Shown here: positions 19,963 to 27,669 of the stretch, one piece after another
How the letters are laid out: each line of letters opens with the position of its first letter
Numbering within the stretch: position 1 is the first letter of the stretch
Source: Ectothiorhodospiraceae bacterium
GTDB taxonomy: Bacteria; Pseudomonadota; Gammaproteobacteria; XJ16; Halofilaceae
Assembly: GCA_007134775.1 (NCBI GenBank)
Contig: SLKC01000090.1
Span: 1 to 41,833, forward strand
Direction of reading: 5' to 3'
DNA: 41,833 bases
Notes under the pieces: model-generated
Told to the model about the DNA's origin: nothing
The model's input: the letters and a program-made list of their open reading frames with translations, nothing else
Database searches by the model: none
Translations under genes and position numbers: made by a program

Positions 19963-20823
19963 ATGACCCCCGATGAATACTGTCAGGAGAAGGCGGCAGC
20001 CAGCGGCTCCAGCTTCTACTACAGCTTCCTCTTCCTGCCGGAGAGGCAGCGCCGCGCCATCACGGCCCTCTACGCCTTCTGCCGCGAGGTCGACGACATT
20101 GTCGATGAGACCTCGGAGCCCGGTGTCGCGCGCATGAAGCTCGCCTGGTGGCGCACCGAGATTGACAAGGTCTTCGACGCCCGCCCCAATCACCCCGTCG
20201 CACGCGCCCTGGCGCCCGCCGTCGAGGAGTTCGGTCTCACGCGCCAGTATTTTCTCGACATCCTGCACGGCATGGAGCTCGATCTCGACCACGAGGGCTT
20301 CGCCAACGCCGACGAACTCGCGAACTATTGCTACTACGCAGCGGCGGCCGTTGGCCTGCTCTCCATCGAGATCTTCGGGTACAAGGAGCCGACCACTCGC
20401 ACCTACGCAGTGGAGATGGGCACGGCCCTGCAGTTGGTGAACATCATCCGCGACGTTCGCGAGGATGCCCGGCGTGGGCGCATCTATCTACCGGTCGATG
20501 AGATGGACGCGCACGGGGTGCGCCCCGACGATCTGCTGAGCGCACCCACATCGGCGGCGCTCCGCCGCGTTCTCGACGCCCAGGCGGAGCGCGCCCGCCA
20601 GCATTACCGGCACGCCCTCGACGTCCTCGCCGCACACGACCGACCGGCGCAGCGGACCGGTCTGATCATGGGGCGTATCTACATGACACTGCTCGAGGAA
20701 ATCGAGCGCGATGGTTTCCGCGTGCTCGAACACCGGGTCGCACTGACCCCGCTGCGCAAGCTCTGGATCGCCTGGCGCTGCGCGCGCGAGGAGCGGCGAC
20801 ACGCGCGCCGTCGGGGTCCATGA
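19963..20823 (+). CDS. hpnD: Presqualene diphosphate synthase HpnD
   Basis: The 286-residue protein belongs to the squalene/phytoene synthase family. Both Asp-rich motifs are present: DDIVDE at 44-49 and the NIIRDVREDARRGR block at 160-173. The N-terminus SGSSFYYSFLFLP and ALYAFCREVDD is the HpnD form. HpnD joins two farnesyl diphosphates into presqualene diphosphate, the first step of the HpnCDE route to squalene. Its stop overlaps the hpnE start (ATGA). A TAAAAT at 19927-19932 could be its -10; no Shine-Dalgarno sequence precedes the ATG. HpnC is not next to it. Confidence 0.93.
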   Translation: MTPDEYCQEKAAASGSSFYYSFLFLPERQRRAITALYAFCREVDDIVDETSEPGVARMKLAWWRTEIDKVFDARPNHPVARALAPAVEEFGLTRQYFLDILHGMELDLDHEGFANADELANYCYYAAAAVGLLSIEIFGYKEPTTRTYAVEMGTALQLVNIIRDVREDARRGRIYLPVDEMDAHGVRPDDLLSAPTSAALRRVLDAQAERARQHYRHALDVLAAHDRPAQRTGLIMGRIYMTLLEEIERDGFRVLEHRVALTPLRKLWIAWRCAREERRHARRRGP

Positions 20824-22127
20824 CCCCCCCGCGGATCGCCGTCATCGGGGCGGGCTGGAGCGGCCTTGCCGCTGCCACGCGCCTGGTCGCAGCCGGGGCC
20901 GAGGTCACGGTCATCGAGGCGGCGGACCGACCGGGTGGGCGGGCGCGCAGCGTCGAGGTCGGCGGCATGCTGCTCGACAACGGGCAGCATATCCTCCTCG
21001 GCGCCTATCGCGAGACGCTGACGGCGATGGAGCGCGTCGGTGCAGATCCGCAACAGCTCTTCCAGCGTATGCCCCTCGACCTGGAGCTGCTCGCCGCGGA
21101 CGGTACGCTGCGTCTGCAACTGCCCCGGGGACCCGCCGCACTCGCCCTGTTCTGGGGGCTGCTTCGTGCCCGGGGTCTGAGCCATCGCGAGCGTCTGCAG
21201 GCACTGACCACCGCACCCGCGCTGCGCAAGCCGCCTCACTCAAGCCAGACCGCCGCGGACTGGCTCGCGGCAACGGGGCAGCCCGCACGCCTGATCCGCA
21301 AGCTGTGGGCTCCCTTGTGCCTGGCGGCCTTGAACACGCCGGTCGCACACGCCTCCGCCGAGGTATTCGCCCGCACGCTGGCCATCGCCTTCGCCGCGCG
21401 CGGCAGCAGCGATCTCCTCCTCCCGCGGTGTGATCTGGGCGCGGTCTTTCCCGCCCCGGCGCTCTCCTGGCTGCAATCGCGAGGGTGCGACGTCCGCCTG
21501 CACACCCGTGTGCGCGGGCTGGAGCCTACGTCGGGGTCCTGGCGCCTCGATCTGGGACGCACGGGGACGATCGAGGCTGAGCACGTCATCGTGGCGACAG
21601 AGGCGCGAGCCGCCGCGCGCCTGCTGTCATCGCTGCCCGCTGCAGCGGCCAGGGCGCTTGCAGAGCGCATCGACCGGATCGCCGTTGAGCCGATCACGAC
21701 CGTCTGGCTCGAGGCGCCTGCGCGCCCAGAGGACGCGCGCGTGATGCAGGGCCGTCTGGACGGGCCGGCGCAGTGGGTCTTCGATCGCCGCATCAGCGGT
21801 CAGCCCGGCGTACGCGCGGCCGTGATCAGCGCGGGCGGGTCCCACATGGAGTGGCCCCGTGCCACCGTCGCGGATCACGTCGCACACCAGCTTGCCGAAG
21901 CTGGACGCCTACCCCAGCCAATCGGCATTATTCGAGAGAGGCGCGCGACCTTTGCGGCGACGCCGGCAACGGAGGCGCTGCGTCCCGTCTGCGATGGGCC
22001 CTTGCGCGGCCTCTGGTTGGGCGGCGACTATGTTGCCAACGGCCTGCCGGCCACGCTGGAAGGCGCTGTGCGTAATGGGCACCGTTGCGCGGCCAACATC
22101 CTGGGGCCCCGAAGGGAGGCGGCATGA
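20820..22127 (+). CDS. hpnE: Hydroxysqualene dehydroxylase HpnE
   Basis: The 435-residue FAD enzyme has the dinucleotide-binding motif IGAGWSGLAAATRL near residues 8-21 and the DNGQHILLGAY motif characteristic of HpnE-type oxidoreductases, with a C-terminal LWLGGDYVANGLPATLEGAV flavin-binding tail. HpnE reduces hydroxysqualene to squalene. It is coupled to hpnD at the start and to the following SDR at the end, both by ATGA overlaps. I see no hopanoid cyclase or HpnC in the window. Confidence 0.92.
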   Translation: MTPPRIAVIGAGWSGLAAATRLVAAGAEVTVIEAADRPGGRARSVEVGGMLLDNGQHILLGAYRETLTAMERVGADPQQLFQRMPLDLELLAADGTLRLQLPRGPAALALFWGLLRARGLSHRERLQALTTAPALRKPPHSSQTAADWLAATGQPARLIRKLWAPLCLAALNTPVAHASAEVFARTLAIAFAARGSSDLLLPRCDLGAVFPAPALSWLQSRGCDVRLHTRVRGLEPTSGSWRLDLGRTGTIEAEHVIVATEARAAARLLSSLPAAAARALAERIDRIAVEPITTVWLEAPARPEDARVMQGRLDGPAQWVFDRRISGQPGVRAAVISAGGSHMEWPRATVADHVAHQLAEAGRLPQPIGIIRERRATFAATPATEALRPVCDGPLRGLWLGGDYVANGLPATLEGAVRNGHRCAANILGPRREAA

Positions 22128-22856: not shown

Positions 22857-23768
22857 TCAAACGGCGCGATCTGTACGGCGGCTCAGCGCGGGCGCATCCA
22901 GCACGAAGATGCCCGCGTCGCCGCTCGCCAGTTCGGGCCAGATCAAGGGGAGATCGGGCCACTGGGCCTCGACCGTGGCCCCGCTCCCCCCGGTCTCCAC
23001 GACCAGCAGGCCGTCCGGCGTGAGATGCGCCGCCGCCCCCGCAAGAATCCGATCGACAATGTCACAGCCCCGATCGCCACCGGCAAGGGCCGCCGCAGGC
23101 TCATGGCGGTATTCGGCCGGCAGGGCCGCCATGCGCTCGCTGTCGACATAGGGTGGATTCGCGACAATGAGATCGTAGCGCTCGCCTTCCAGCCCTGCGT
23201 AGACATCGGCCTGCCGCAGCTGTACTCGCTCCCCCAAGCCGTGAGCCGCGACGTTCTCGCGGGCGAGCGCAAGCGCTTCCGGGTCGATATCCGTCGCATC
23301 CACGACTGCCTCGGGAAAGGCGCAGGCGCAGGCGACCGCGATGCATCCGCTCCCCGTGCCGATATCCAGGATCCGCGTTACATTGCCCGCGCGCAGCCAG
23401 GGCGCAAAGCGCTGAGCGATCATCTCCGCAAGCGGCGAGCGCGGAACCAGCACCCGCTCATCCACGCGAAACGCCAACCCGGCAAACCAGGCACGACCGG
23501 TGAGATAGGCCAGCGGCTGGCGCGTCGTGATCCGCCGTACGAGCAGCTCACGGACCGCAACGAGATCGTCGGCGGATACGGGCGCATAGACATCTTCGAC
23601 CGGCTCGACTGGCGAATGCCCGAGGGCCTCAAGCACGAGCCAGGCCGCCTCGTCGCGGGCGTTGTCCGTGCCGTGCCCGTATGCCAGGTCAGCCCCGTCC
23701 AGCCTCTGCTCGACGGCCTGGACGAGTTCGAGCAGCGTCGATGCATGCAGGTCGATATCCGCGCTCAC
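22857..23768 (-). CDS. prmB: Ribosomal protein uL3 glutamine N5-methyltransferase
   Basis: The 303-residue enzyme methylates a Gln of ribosomal protein L3 using SAM. The SAM-binding motif ILDIGTGSGCIAVACA and the catalytic NPPY motif (IVANPPYVDSE) are present, after an N-terminal helical domain containing RRITTRQPLAYLTGRAWFAG and PRSPL. PRSPL supports PrmB over PrmC; PrmC was the alternative considered. The start is GTG at 23766-23768 with a GGAGG six bases upstream; the longer open frame overlaps the promoter region of the next gene. It converges on the SDR gene. Confidence 0.92.
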   Translation of the reverse strand: MSADIDLHASTLLELVQAVEQRLDGADLAYGHGTDNARDEAAWLVLEALGHSPVEPVEDVYAPVSADDLVAVRELLVRRITTRQPLAYLTGRAWFAGLAFRVDERVLVPRSPLAEMIAQRFAPWLRAGNVTRILDIGTGSGCIAVACACAFPEAVVDATDIDPEALALARENVAAHGLGERVQLRQADVYAGLEGERYDLIVANPPYVDSERMAALPAEYRHEPAAALAGGDRGCDIVDRILAGAAAHLTPDGLLVVETGGSGATVEAQWPDLPLIWPELASGDAGIFVLDAPALSRRTDRAV

Positions 23769-23847
23769 GCGCCGCCTCCATCCAGATTTCCGCAGCGAGG
23801 GCCGGGCGCGATGCCCGGGAGGCGGGACGGCGGCGCCCCGCCTCGCG

Positions 23848-23853
23848 TATAAT
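23848..23853 (+). promoter_or_regulatory. TATAAT -10 element before the PCuAC-like gene
   Basis: A perfect TATAAT lies 52 bases upstream of the ATG at 23906, with a GGAG ribosome site near the start codon. No good -35 is seen at 17 bases, so an activator or an extended -10 type promoter is possible. Confidence 0.55.
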
Positions 23854-23905: not shown

Positions 23906-24364
23906 ATGTCTCTGCCCGCGCGCCTGTTGGCCGGTGCCCTGCTCTCGGTGATTGCCACGACCGTCCATGCCCTCGACGTACACAATGCCCGCACACCGTC
24001 GGCACCGGAGGGCGCCTCGCTGATGGCCGGCTACATGGAGCTGCACCATTATGGCAGCAACAGCGTCAGCGTGACGGCCATCAGCAGCCCGCAATTCGAG
24101 TCCATCGAGATCTACGATCGTGTCATCGAAGATGGCATGACCGAACTGCGCATGGTCGACGAGATCGTGGTCGATTCGGGCCAGCCCGTCGAACTCGTAC
24201 CGCGGGGCAAACACCTGGTCCTGCATGGCCCCACAGAGGCGTTCTCCCAGGGAGACCGCATCACGCTGGAGCTGGAGACGACCGAAGGCAGCGTGGAAGC
24301 CGAGATGCGCGTCGTCGATGGCGAGACTTTCGGGCACGACGACGCGGCCGAACACGGTTATTGA
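23906..24364 (+). CDS. PCuAC-like periplasmic protein with degenerate copper motif
   Basis: The 152-residue protein has a Sec signal peptide (cleavage near residue 23, HA-LDV) and a PCuAC/CopC-like beta fold: GYMELHHYG, then GKHLVLHGPTEAFSQGD. The family's copper motif spacing H-X10-M-X21-H-X-M is exactly preserved, but the residues are Y70, L81, H103 and V105, so only one of four ligands is left. PCuAC proteins carry copper to cytochrome oxidase; this copy probably no longer binds copper in the usual way. The ATG has GGAG eight bases upstream. psd begins 25 bases later. Confidence 0.8.
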   Translation: MSLPARLLAGALLSVIATTVHALDVHNARTPSAPEGASLMAGYMELHHYGSNSVSVTAISSPQFESIEIYDRVIEDGMTELRMVDEIVVDSGQPVELVPRGKHLVLHGPTEAFSQGDRITLELETTEGSVEAEMRVVDGETFGHDDAAEHGY

Positions 24365-24389: not shown

Positions 24390-25232
24390 GTGATCGATCC
24401 ACGCCTGTGGCTGCTGCGCCTGCTGCCACACCATGCGATCTCGCGCCTGACCTTCTGGCTCGCCCGGCGCCGGACCCGACTCAAGGCGCCGCTGGTACGC
24501 TGGTTCATCCGTCGCTACGGTGTCGATATGGGAGAAGCGGCGGAGCCGGATCCAGCCGCCTACGCCAGCTTCAACGGGTTCTTCACCCGGGCACTGAGAC
24601 CGGGCGCGCGCCCGCTGACCGGAACGGATACCACCCTTATTGCGCCTGTTGATGGTCGTATCTCCCAGGCGGGCGCGATCCGCGCGGGAACGCTGTTCCA
24701 GGCCAAGGGCATCGATTACGCCGCAGCCGATCTGCTCGGTAGCCTCGAGGCGTTCGCACCCTTTCACAGCGGCAGTTTCGCCACGCTCTACCTCGCCCCC
24801 GGTGACTACCACCGCATCCACATGCCGCTCGCGGGCACATTGCGCCACATGACCTATGTGCCCGGACGGCTGTTCTCCGTTGCCCCCTGGACCGTGCGCA
24901 GTGTCCCTGGCCTGTTCACCCGCAACGAGCGCGTCTGCGCCCACTTCGACACCCCCTACGGTCGCCTGGCGATGGTGCTCGTCGGGGCAATCAATGTCGC
25001 GGCGATCGAAACAGTCTGGGCTGGCCTGATCACGCCACCGCGGGGCCGGCAGATCGTGGAGATACCCTACACCGGCCAGGCCGCGGTGACACTCCCCCGT
25101 GGCGCCGAGATGGGGCGTTTCAACATGGGCTCGACCGTCATCCTGCTCCTTGAGCGCAACGTCGCTTGGTCGCCGGGCACGGCACCCGGCGAGCGGGTTC
25201 GCATGGGCAACGCGCTCGCCCACCTCGACTGA
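24390..25232 (+). CDS. psd: Phosphatidylserine decarboxylase proenzyme
   Basis: The 280-residue inner-membrane-associated enzyme makes phosphatidylethanolamine. PADG-type segment APVDGRISQAG, LSPxDYHR-type YLAPGDYHRIHMP, and FARNER-type FTRNERV are all present. The self-cleavage and pyruvoyl site reads MGST at about 246-249 instead of LGST, with Ser248 becoming the pyruvoyl group; the alpha chain would be about 33 residues. The start is taken as GTG 24390, which gives a normal N-terminus; the ribosome site is weak, so translation may depend on the upstream gene. It ends three bases before the convergent glycosyltransferase gene. Confidence 0.94.
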   Translation: MIDPRLWLLRLLPHHAISRLTFWLARRRTRLKAPLVRWFIRRYGVDMGEAAEPDPAAYASFNGFFTRALRPGARPLTGTDTTLIAPVDGRISQAGAIRAGTLFQAKGIDYAAADLLGSLEAFAPFHSGSFATLYLAPGDYHRIHMPLAGTLRHMTYVPGRLFSVAPWTVRSVPGLFTRNERVCAHFDTPYGRLAMVLVGAINVAAIETVWAGLITPPRGRQIVEIPYTGQAAVTLPRGAEMGRFNMGSTVILLLERNVAWSPGTAPGERVRMGNALAHLD

Positions 25233-25235
25233 CCG

Positions 25236-25874
25236 CTACGAGCCCTCGCGCAGGGCCGCAACTCGCGAGCGCCAGGCCGGCGACAGCGTGGCCAGCCGAT
25301 CCAGATCAGCGGGCACATCGACATCGGGCAGGGCAGGGAGTTCATGCCAGCGCCAGCCGAGGGCGAGGAGTCGCTCACGGGTCGCCTGCAGCACAGTCTC
25401 GGTGCCCCAGGGAATGCCGTCGAACAGCGCGGCGGGCGGATCGTGCATACCCAACAACACGTAGCCGCCGTCGAGTGCGGGCACGACCACTGCATCATTG
25501 CGTGCTAGGGCAGCCGCCGCTGCGGCGATCACCGCGGGCATGAGCGCGGGGCAGTCCGTGCCGATCACGATCGCGGGTCCACCGTCGCCCGCGGCGAGTG
25601 CTGCGTGCATGCGCTCACCGAGATCCCTGCCCGACTGTGTGCGCCGCACTACGGCGTGATCCGCAGCCACTTTGGCGAGAAGGCCGGTCGAATCGTCCCC
25701 GGCCGCCCACAACTCGACCGGCCCGACGCCCGCCGCCACGGCGCGTTGCACCGTGTCCGGCACCAGTTCGGCCTGCAACCGCGCGGCCCCGTCTGCGCCC
25801 AGTGCCGGGATGAGCCGCGTCTTCGCCTCCCCGGGGACGGGCGCACGGCAGAAGACGAGGATGCGCGCCTTCAT
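25236..25874 (-). CDS. TIGR04282-type glycosyltransferase-like protein
   Basis: The 212-residue protein has the conserved pattern VFCRAPVPGEAKTRLIPALG at the N-terminus, GTDCPALMPAVI, and a VVPALDGGYVLLG segment with the DGGY motif. This family is nearly always beside the arsenosugar-type radical SAM protein and a second glycosyltransferase, as seen here. The chosen ATG (25874) overlaps the stop of the upstream gene by four bases (ATGA); a longer frame to 25988 shadows that gene. Donor and acceptor are not established by sequence. Confidence 0.85.
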   Translation of the reverse strand: MKARILVFCRAPVPGEAKTRLIPALGADGAARLQAELVPDTVQRAVAAGVGPVELWAAGDDSTGLLAKVAADHAVVRRTQSGRDLGERMHAALAAGDGGPAIVIGTDCPALMPAVIAAAAAALARNDAVVVPALDGGYVLLGMHDPPAALFDGIPWGTETVLQATRERLLALGWRWHELPALPDVDVPADLDRLATLSPAWRSRVAALREGS

Positions 25875-26641
25875 GTCCGCCGTCGCTGGTAGCGCAGAGC
25901 AAGCGCGGTGGGCTCCACGCCGCGCCAATACGCGAAACGCAGACGCCACATCAGCAGGATCGTGCGCCAGGCGCCACCTTCCTGCCACCGCCTGGCGGAA
26001 GTGGTGAGGCCCACGGGCAGGCAGCAGGGGCGCGCCCGCGCCCGCAGCTGCGCACTGATTGCGACATCCTCCATCAGGGGCTGTTCGGGAAACCCACCGA
26101 TCTCGTCAAAGACCCGTCGTTGCACGAAGACGCCCTGATCGCCCGTGGCGATCCCGGTCAACCGCGAGCGCAGATTCATCAATCGCGCCGTGAGCCGCAG
26201 CAGCGGGCGCTGGGAATCGAGGCGCACACCGAAACGCCCCCAGACGAGTTCGGGCCGGTTCTGCGCGGCGAGTAGCGCCGCAATCGCCTGCGCATCGACG
26301 CTCGTATCAGCGTGGAGGAACCAGAGCAGCTCGCCACGGGCATGCCGGGCGCCGGCATTCATCTGGTGGGCCCGCCCGCGCGCGGCGACAACGACGCGAT
26401 CGGCATGCGCACGCGCGACGGCAACGGTCTCGTCACCGCTACCGCCATCGACGACGATGACCTCACCGCCCCACTCACGCAGCGGCTCAAGGCTGCGCAG
26501 CATCGAGCCGATGCCGGCGGCTTCGTCGAGGGCGGGCACGATCGCGGAGACGGGCACGGCGTCATTGGCCCCGGACGGTGGCAGCCCGCCGGCCCTACCT
26601 CCTGCCACCAGCCGCCCACGCTCACCGTGCATTCGGCCCAT
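25871..26641 (-). CDS. TIGR04283-type glycosyltransferase (GT2 fold)
   Basis: The protein (256 residues from ATG 26641) has the GT2 start VSAIVPALDEA near residue 31, the DGGSGDET motif, HAD for the DxD-like element, and a LMEDV acidic segment. It is the partner of TIGR04282 and ArsS in arsenosugar-type clusters. The N-terminus of about 30 residues before the GT domain is poorly supported: ATG at 26632 and a later start are also possible. It is five bases behind the arsS stop, hence likely in one operon. Confidence 0.82.
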   Translation of the reverse strand: MGRMHGERGRLVAGGRAGGLPPSGANDAVPVSAIVPALDEAAGIGSMLRSLEPLREWGGEVIVVDGGSGDETVAVARAHADRVVVAARGRAHQMNAGARHARGELLWFLHADTSVDAQAIAALLAAQNRPELVWGRFGVRLDSQRPLLRLTARLMNLRSRLTGIATGDQGVFVQRRVFDEIGGFPEQPLMEDVAISAQLRARARPCCLPVGLTTSARRWQEGGAWRTILLMWRLRFAYWRGVEPTALALRYQRRRT

Positions 26642-26646
26642 TCAGG

Positions 26647-27669
<1,023 letters not shown>

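Follow-up and report, generated by a model that had tools for sequence, protein, structure and literature searches.

Copper chaperones of the PCuAC family

According to the review PMC9145763, SCO and PCuAC proteins work together when the CuA centre of cytochrome c oxidase is built. The dependence of PCuAC on its four Cu(I) ligands has been measured in AccA, where single-ligand Ala mutants bound Cu(I) with log KD values of -13.5 to -13.9 against -16.5, a protein with all four ligands gone was left with a log KD of -11.8 (no meaningful affinity, according to the authors), and variants with more than one ligand mutated behaved in cells like a deletion (PMC13006917). The AccA tail was reported in the same study to bind Cu(II) and to be dispensable in cells (PMC13006917). 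The present analysis concerns a PCuAC gene at positions 23906..24364 of the forward strand of a 41,833-nucleotide stretch (contig SLKC01000090.1, hereafter the window) from an Ectothiorhodospiraceae bacterium, the product of which keeps the spacing of the chaperone motif, H(M)-X10-M-X21-H-X-M, and one of its four residues. We consider it probable that pcuAC was duplicated in this lineage and that the copy in the old slot, a sco-pcuAC-psd block, lost Cu(I) delivery but still folds as before, possibly to bind other proteins during the assembly of the oxidase.

The gene opens with an ATG at 23906, preceded by GGAG 8 nt ahead, and closes with a stop codon at 24362-24364, encoding 152 amino acids; an exact TATAAT was read upstream at 23848-23853. 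Its product scores 70.4 bits with the Pfam profile PF04314, Copper chaperone PCu(A)C, the curated cut-off of which is 29.4; this match and the predicted fold described below identify it as a PCuAC protein by descent. Residues 1-22 (23906..23971, forward strand) form a probable signal peptide, recognised by eye from a hydrophobic N-terminus with V-H-A before L23 and modelled at a predicted local distance difference test (pLDDT) score of 61-65 over residues 1-20, so that the protein is probably exported to the periplasm.

Its likeness to classical PCuACs lies in family match, predicted fold, and ligand spacing, and probably in export, whereas it differs from them in having one of the four Cu(I) ligands and a short tail (24335..24361) with two His, H144 and H150. 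The tail alone is not unusual, because 11 of the 39 canonical PCuACs encoded beside psd, for which the median is four tail His, have none. Having kept a single ligand, the window protein is not expected to donate Cu(I); judged by the AccA mutants, its affinity for the ion should be too low for that role.

Ligand positions and their rarity

Four alignments, comprising 53 loci, 78 distinct domains, 29 sequences, and the 78 domains realigned, place Y70 (24113..24115), L81 (24146..24148), H103 (24212..24214), and V105 (24218..24220), all on the forward strand, in the ligand columns, H103 being the sole ligand kept. A phmmer alignment with the solved AccA structure 9yah sets the same four residues opposite the AccA ligands. 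The preliminary description, made from the DNA alone, had reported exact spacing with these residues in place of His, Met, His, and Met, and is borne out. The objection it had raised against itself, that a shifted alignment could be hiding true ligands, was examined and rejected, the alignment with the intact paralogue of the same genome being ungapped from position 70 to position 103. The nearby M83 stands two residues beyond the second-ligand column, and its use would need a two-residue slip in register.

The complete H/M/H/M set is present in 74 of the 78 distinct PCuAC domains of the profile alignment, and in all 20 loci taken from titled genomes, a set that has some species in common with the other loci. 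Besides the window protein (YLHV), the exceptions are L016 of genome G042 (YMHM), L028 of genome G040 (gap/F/H/L in the profile alignment and V/F/H/L after realignment), and L065 of the congener G002 (Q/W/R/M and Q/P/R/M, respectively). Three of these four carry a psd-linked label, but so do 42 of the 78 domains in any case, and no association of ligand loss with psd is claimed on that account; at least one psd-linked domain, L122 of the slot survey below, does not bear the label. No further Y/L/H/V homologue was present among the sequences opened (the best 30 class-search loci from 193 matching genomes out of 369, and about 30 loci from the search for relatives), and a single-protein scan of the titled genomes returned no relative of the window protein.

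Two of the exceptional genes merit description in their own right. L065:1456-1881, from the same genus as the window, is a differently degraded PCuAC that scores 46 bits and has no psd in its stretch, its genome carrying a canonical PCuAC besides. L028:1474-1986, from another family of the class, is a ligand-lost PCuAC lying inside a sco-pcuAC-psd block. The tree rejects neither the union of the window pair with L065 (approximately unbiased test, p-AU 0.515) nor that of the window protein with L028 (p-AU 0.472), and is compatible with more than one count of the ligand losses.

Predicted fold and constraint

AlphaFold2, given the window protein and 19 relatives, returned a model of mean pLDDT 87.9, the averages per ten residues lying at 92-98 from residue 21 to residue 140; the sequence is thereby shown to be compatible with a PCuAC fold, which is less than a proof of it. 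The best 11 Protein Data Bank matches found by Foldseek are all PCuAC domains, and VIA-align gave Z scores of 15.7-18.4 for PCuAC structures and 12.6 for DR1885, the former including the chaperones of N. gonorrhoeae (AccA, 9yah; Z 18.3), S. lividans (3zja; 18.4), and T. thermophilus (2k6w; 16.0). The structure prediction suggested in the preliminary description thereby agrees with the retained fold it had proposed.

A parallel for a PCuAC fold devoid of the classical motif is provided by the methanotroph proteins PmoF1 and PmoF2 (6p16, 6p1e, 6p1g, 6p1f; Z 15.7-16.8), from which the window protein differs in that it has no H-X10-H motif and would not begin with His once cleaved at the likely site. 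A His-brace of the methanotroph type was accordingly ruled out, there being no pair of His 11 residues apart among the eight that the protein contains (positions 21, 26, 47, 48, 103, 107, 144, and 150).

Next after the PCuACs come chains of the actinobacterial bcc-aa3 supercomplex (9qef W, 8ovd W, 8ovc b, and 7qhm U; Z 12.6, 12.3, 12.1, and 10.1), which differ in superposing at a root-mean-square deviation (rmsd) of 9.2-9.9, the weakest Z of 10.1 being only just higher than that of unrelated archaeal pilins (9.8, rmsd 3.6). None of these chains was among the 21 sequences found with the PCuAC profile at E values up to 10. Chain W of 9qef is taken here to be LpqE, and PF04314 bears the name “LpqE-like” in InterPro. 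Unlike the window protein, LpqE comes from another phylum and is a lipoprotein. It is described as an accessory subunit and is said to stabilise the link between CIII and CIV (PMC12789660, PMC11189923). The comparison goes no further than to suggest that a CuA oxidase can use a PCuAC-like fold for binding proteins.

As to whether selection has acted on the window copy, a profile built without it scores it at 116.4 bits, a value reached by 0 of 200 neutral simulations from the intact copy at each of three identities, the maxima being 93.6, 76.2, and 44.3 bits at 64, 55, and 41% identity, respectively. This neutral simulation suggests that selection kept the PCuAC fold. Among non-ligand columns conserved at 60% or more, the window protein keeps 20 of 31 (canonical median 0.76), and at 70% or more it keeps 15 of 19 (canonical median 0.84), short of the median in both cases but far above the one in four of its ligands.

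The psd slot

The gene for phosphatidylserine decarboxylase, psd (24390..25232, forward strand; PF02666 at 192 bits, TIGR00163 at 227.5 bits), begins with a GTG at 24390, 25 nt past the PCuAC stop. On the other side lies the divergent prmB (22857..23768, reverse strand), encoding the ribosomal protein L3 glutamine methyltransferase (translated from 22857-23774, it scores 337.8 bits with TIGR03533; the GTG start at 23768 was picked by eye). The window PCuAC gene, directly upstream of psd and with prmB divergent, therefore has the setting of the sco-pcuAC-psd block.

How common this setting is was gauged by a survey with PCuAC and SCO profiles, in which psd was matched in 319 of 369 genomes, 142 of the best 150 psd places were examined, and 141 proved usable, L187 being dropped as its stretch held no psd; drawn from the best 150, the sample leans towards relatives of the window psd. 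A gene for a CuA-site chaperone lies directly upstream of psd in 58 of the 141 loci (SCO and PCuAC in 29, PCuAC alone in five including the window, SCO alone in 24), neither being found in the remaining 83, a count that takes in three loci with less than 1 kb upstream (L100, L157, L158). It should be borne in mind that the PCuAC profile includes the window protein, that the SCO profile was seeded by motif from 37 slot open reading frames (ORFs), that the SCO match of L194 is weak (33.9 bits), and that the PCuAC gene of L144 stops 230 nt ahead of psd. Pfam identified the SCO ORFs in the blocks of L004, which belongs to the 141-locus set, and of L028 and L213, from outside it, as SCO1-SenC (109.5-138.9 bits). 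prmB was matched upstream of psd in 76 of the 141 loci.

In the titled records, psd adjoins the PCuAC gene in 14 of 20 loci, for instance in Thiohalobacter thiocyanaticus (L213) and Methylohalomonas lacus (L216). By these counts, genes for CuA-site chaperones often lie beside psd; of the 42 PCuAC domains labelled psd-linked, 39 are canonical. The neighbour noted in the preliminary description is thus real, but it does not mark a changed role: the adjacency is a common gene order and no sign of a new job. The window slot gave no SCO profile match, SCO being present in 29 of the 34 slots that bear a PCuAC gene, and in the congeners G001 and G002 no SCO or PCuAC gene separates prmB from psd. In the open-licence library searched, no paper was found that joins PCuAC with phosphatidylserine decarboxylase, or SenC with phosphatidylserine decarboxylase and operon; SenC with psd occurred in one unrelated paper, and none of the 10 titles listed out of 21 wider matches concerned this gene order.

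Elsewhere in the neighbourhood, 25236-27669 holds a TIGR04282 arsenosugar glycosyltransferase gene beside a likely second glycosyltransferase gene and an ArsS-like radical SAM gene (the latter two named by eye), and 19963-22127 is occupied by genes whose translations, judged by eye, resemble the squalene synthesis proteins HpnD and HpnE.

An intact sister copy

A second PCuAC gene in the same genome (C172:44068-44493) encodes the full H/M/H/M set and a tail with three His, and adjoins a gene named by eye as TypA/BipA-like. The two proteins are 43% identical over the matched part, with 63 of 152 aligned residues identical, and are paired in the tree with support of 99/89, from a bootstrap that had not fully settled; the end branch of the window protein measures 0.84 and that of its intact sister 0.77.

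Elsewhere in the genome, SCO1-SenC and COX2 were each matched twice, both COX2 proteins carrying CxxxCxxxHxxM, whereas the congeners have one COX2 match each. One COX2 gene lies in an apparent oxidase operon (judged by eye, with the COX2 domain confirmed by Pfam), and one SCO gene adjoins a Caa3_CtaG gene. As SCO and CuA-type oxidase subunits are thus available away from the window, the intact copy is probably the one at work in CuA assembly. Two further genes were observed: that of the second CuA-type COX2 (L205; G000:C74:132000-132215), which has a C-terminal CxxCH stretch, and L229:8349-8942, flanked by genes that were named by eye as surf1-like and ctaA-like, whose small product is anchored in the membrane, contains a CAPSC motif, and gave no Pfam match at E 0.001.

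Weighing the explanations

A changed role for the window protein is no more than plausible. According to the reading we favour, its gene would be the PCuAC member of a block that recurs across the class; pcuAC would have been duplicated in this lineage, with the C172 copy keeping the H/M/H/M Cu(I) site and probably serving CuA assembly, while the psd-slot copy would have lost three of its four ligands, in a slot that also has no sco. The retained PCuAC surface of the ligand-less protein would then most likely dock, free of metal, onto a partner from that pathway, be it the intact PCuAC, SCO, or subunit II of the oxidase.

A number of points weigh against this reading. All 19 relatives in the AlphaFold2 alignment are canonical. 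The simulation takes the intact paralogue as a stand-in for the ancestor and remains compatible with a recent loss of constraint, and since 32, 23, and 5 of the 200 neutral runs at 64, 55, and 41% identity met no stop, the open frame alone is weak evidence. Conservation reaches at least 80% in 11 non-ligand columns, of which the window protein keeps seven, below the canonical 5th percentile of 0.73 (median 0.91), so that constraint looks somewhat relaxed; the earlier view of a domain otherwise well preserved is roughly right for the columns conserved at 70% or more and less so for these. The Nei–Gojobori (NG86) estimates for the window and intact pair, dN 0.54 and dS 0.85, do not speak of strong constraint and are too close to saturation to carry weight. 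Judged by distribution, the older place would be that of the slot copy; against this, 83 of the 141 psd loci have neither chaperone, and the psd-linked PCuACs are scattered in the tree, with 20 label changes, at least six of them forced by starred branches. Finally, an intact partner is not always present, as no second PCuAC over the cut-off was found in G040 (an 81% complete genome) or G042.

The main rival to a metal-free partner role is that the window gene is a redundant slot copy in slow decay, left with no role once the intact paralogue took over and still open in frame because the loss is recent. The existence of the sister copy, the three lost ligands, the shortfall in the most conserved columns, a pair dN/dS of about 0.64 (NG86), and the absence of PCuAC from this slot in both congeners all favour decay. 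It is opposed by a family score above every neutral simulation, by a frame free of stops and frameshifts with codon-position GC resembling that of the neighbouring genes, and by a branch only slightly longer than that of the intact copy. As these objections still allow for a recent loss of constraint, decay is a possibility to be taken seriously, albeit one we hold to be rather unlikely.

It is less likely still that the metal site has changed, with H103 and H107, H47/H48, or the tail residues H144 and H150 binding Cu(II) or another metal for storage or Cu(II) handling. Such a site could draw on the one ligand His kept, the His at 107, the two tail His, and His48, which stands where 97% of canonical members have Asn, and it has a precedent in the methanotroph PCuACs, which use a different His site (PMC13006917). 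The missing H-X10-H nonetheless sets the window protein apart from the methanotroph His-brace as described, and its tail falls short of the canonical median in His, though His-less tails are found among canonical members too. H103 and H107 lie four residues apart in one predicted strand (102-109), too far for a single metal by general geometry.

A role tied to psd, in phospholipid synthesis or membrane work, is highly improbable and is rejected as a leading idea: the 25-nt gap makes co-transcription likely and the adjacency recurs, but canonical PCuAC and SCO genes share the slot, so that it is no mark of this copy, and most of the psd loci surveyed have no such gene.

Implications for the PCuAC family

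Carrying the favoured metal-free partner role further, one might picture a docking “pseudo-metallochaperone” that helps to assemble the CuA oxidase or keep it together, as LpqE-like accessory chains may do in actinobacterial supercomplexes, with ligand-lost forms recurring in the slot, as in the window and L028; we offer this as a speculative and doubtful extension.

The recurring order of pcuAC and psd corrects a tempting inference, in that the neighbour offers no clue to a new role, and for genomes of this class the sco/pcuAC-psd slot can guide the search for genes of CuA assembly. The presence of a copy without ligands and an intact sister in one genome offers a clean pair with which to ask whether the PCuAC domain does more than carry copper.
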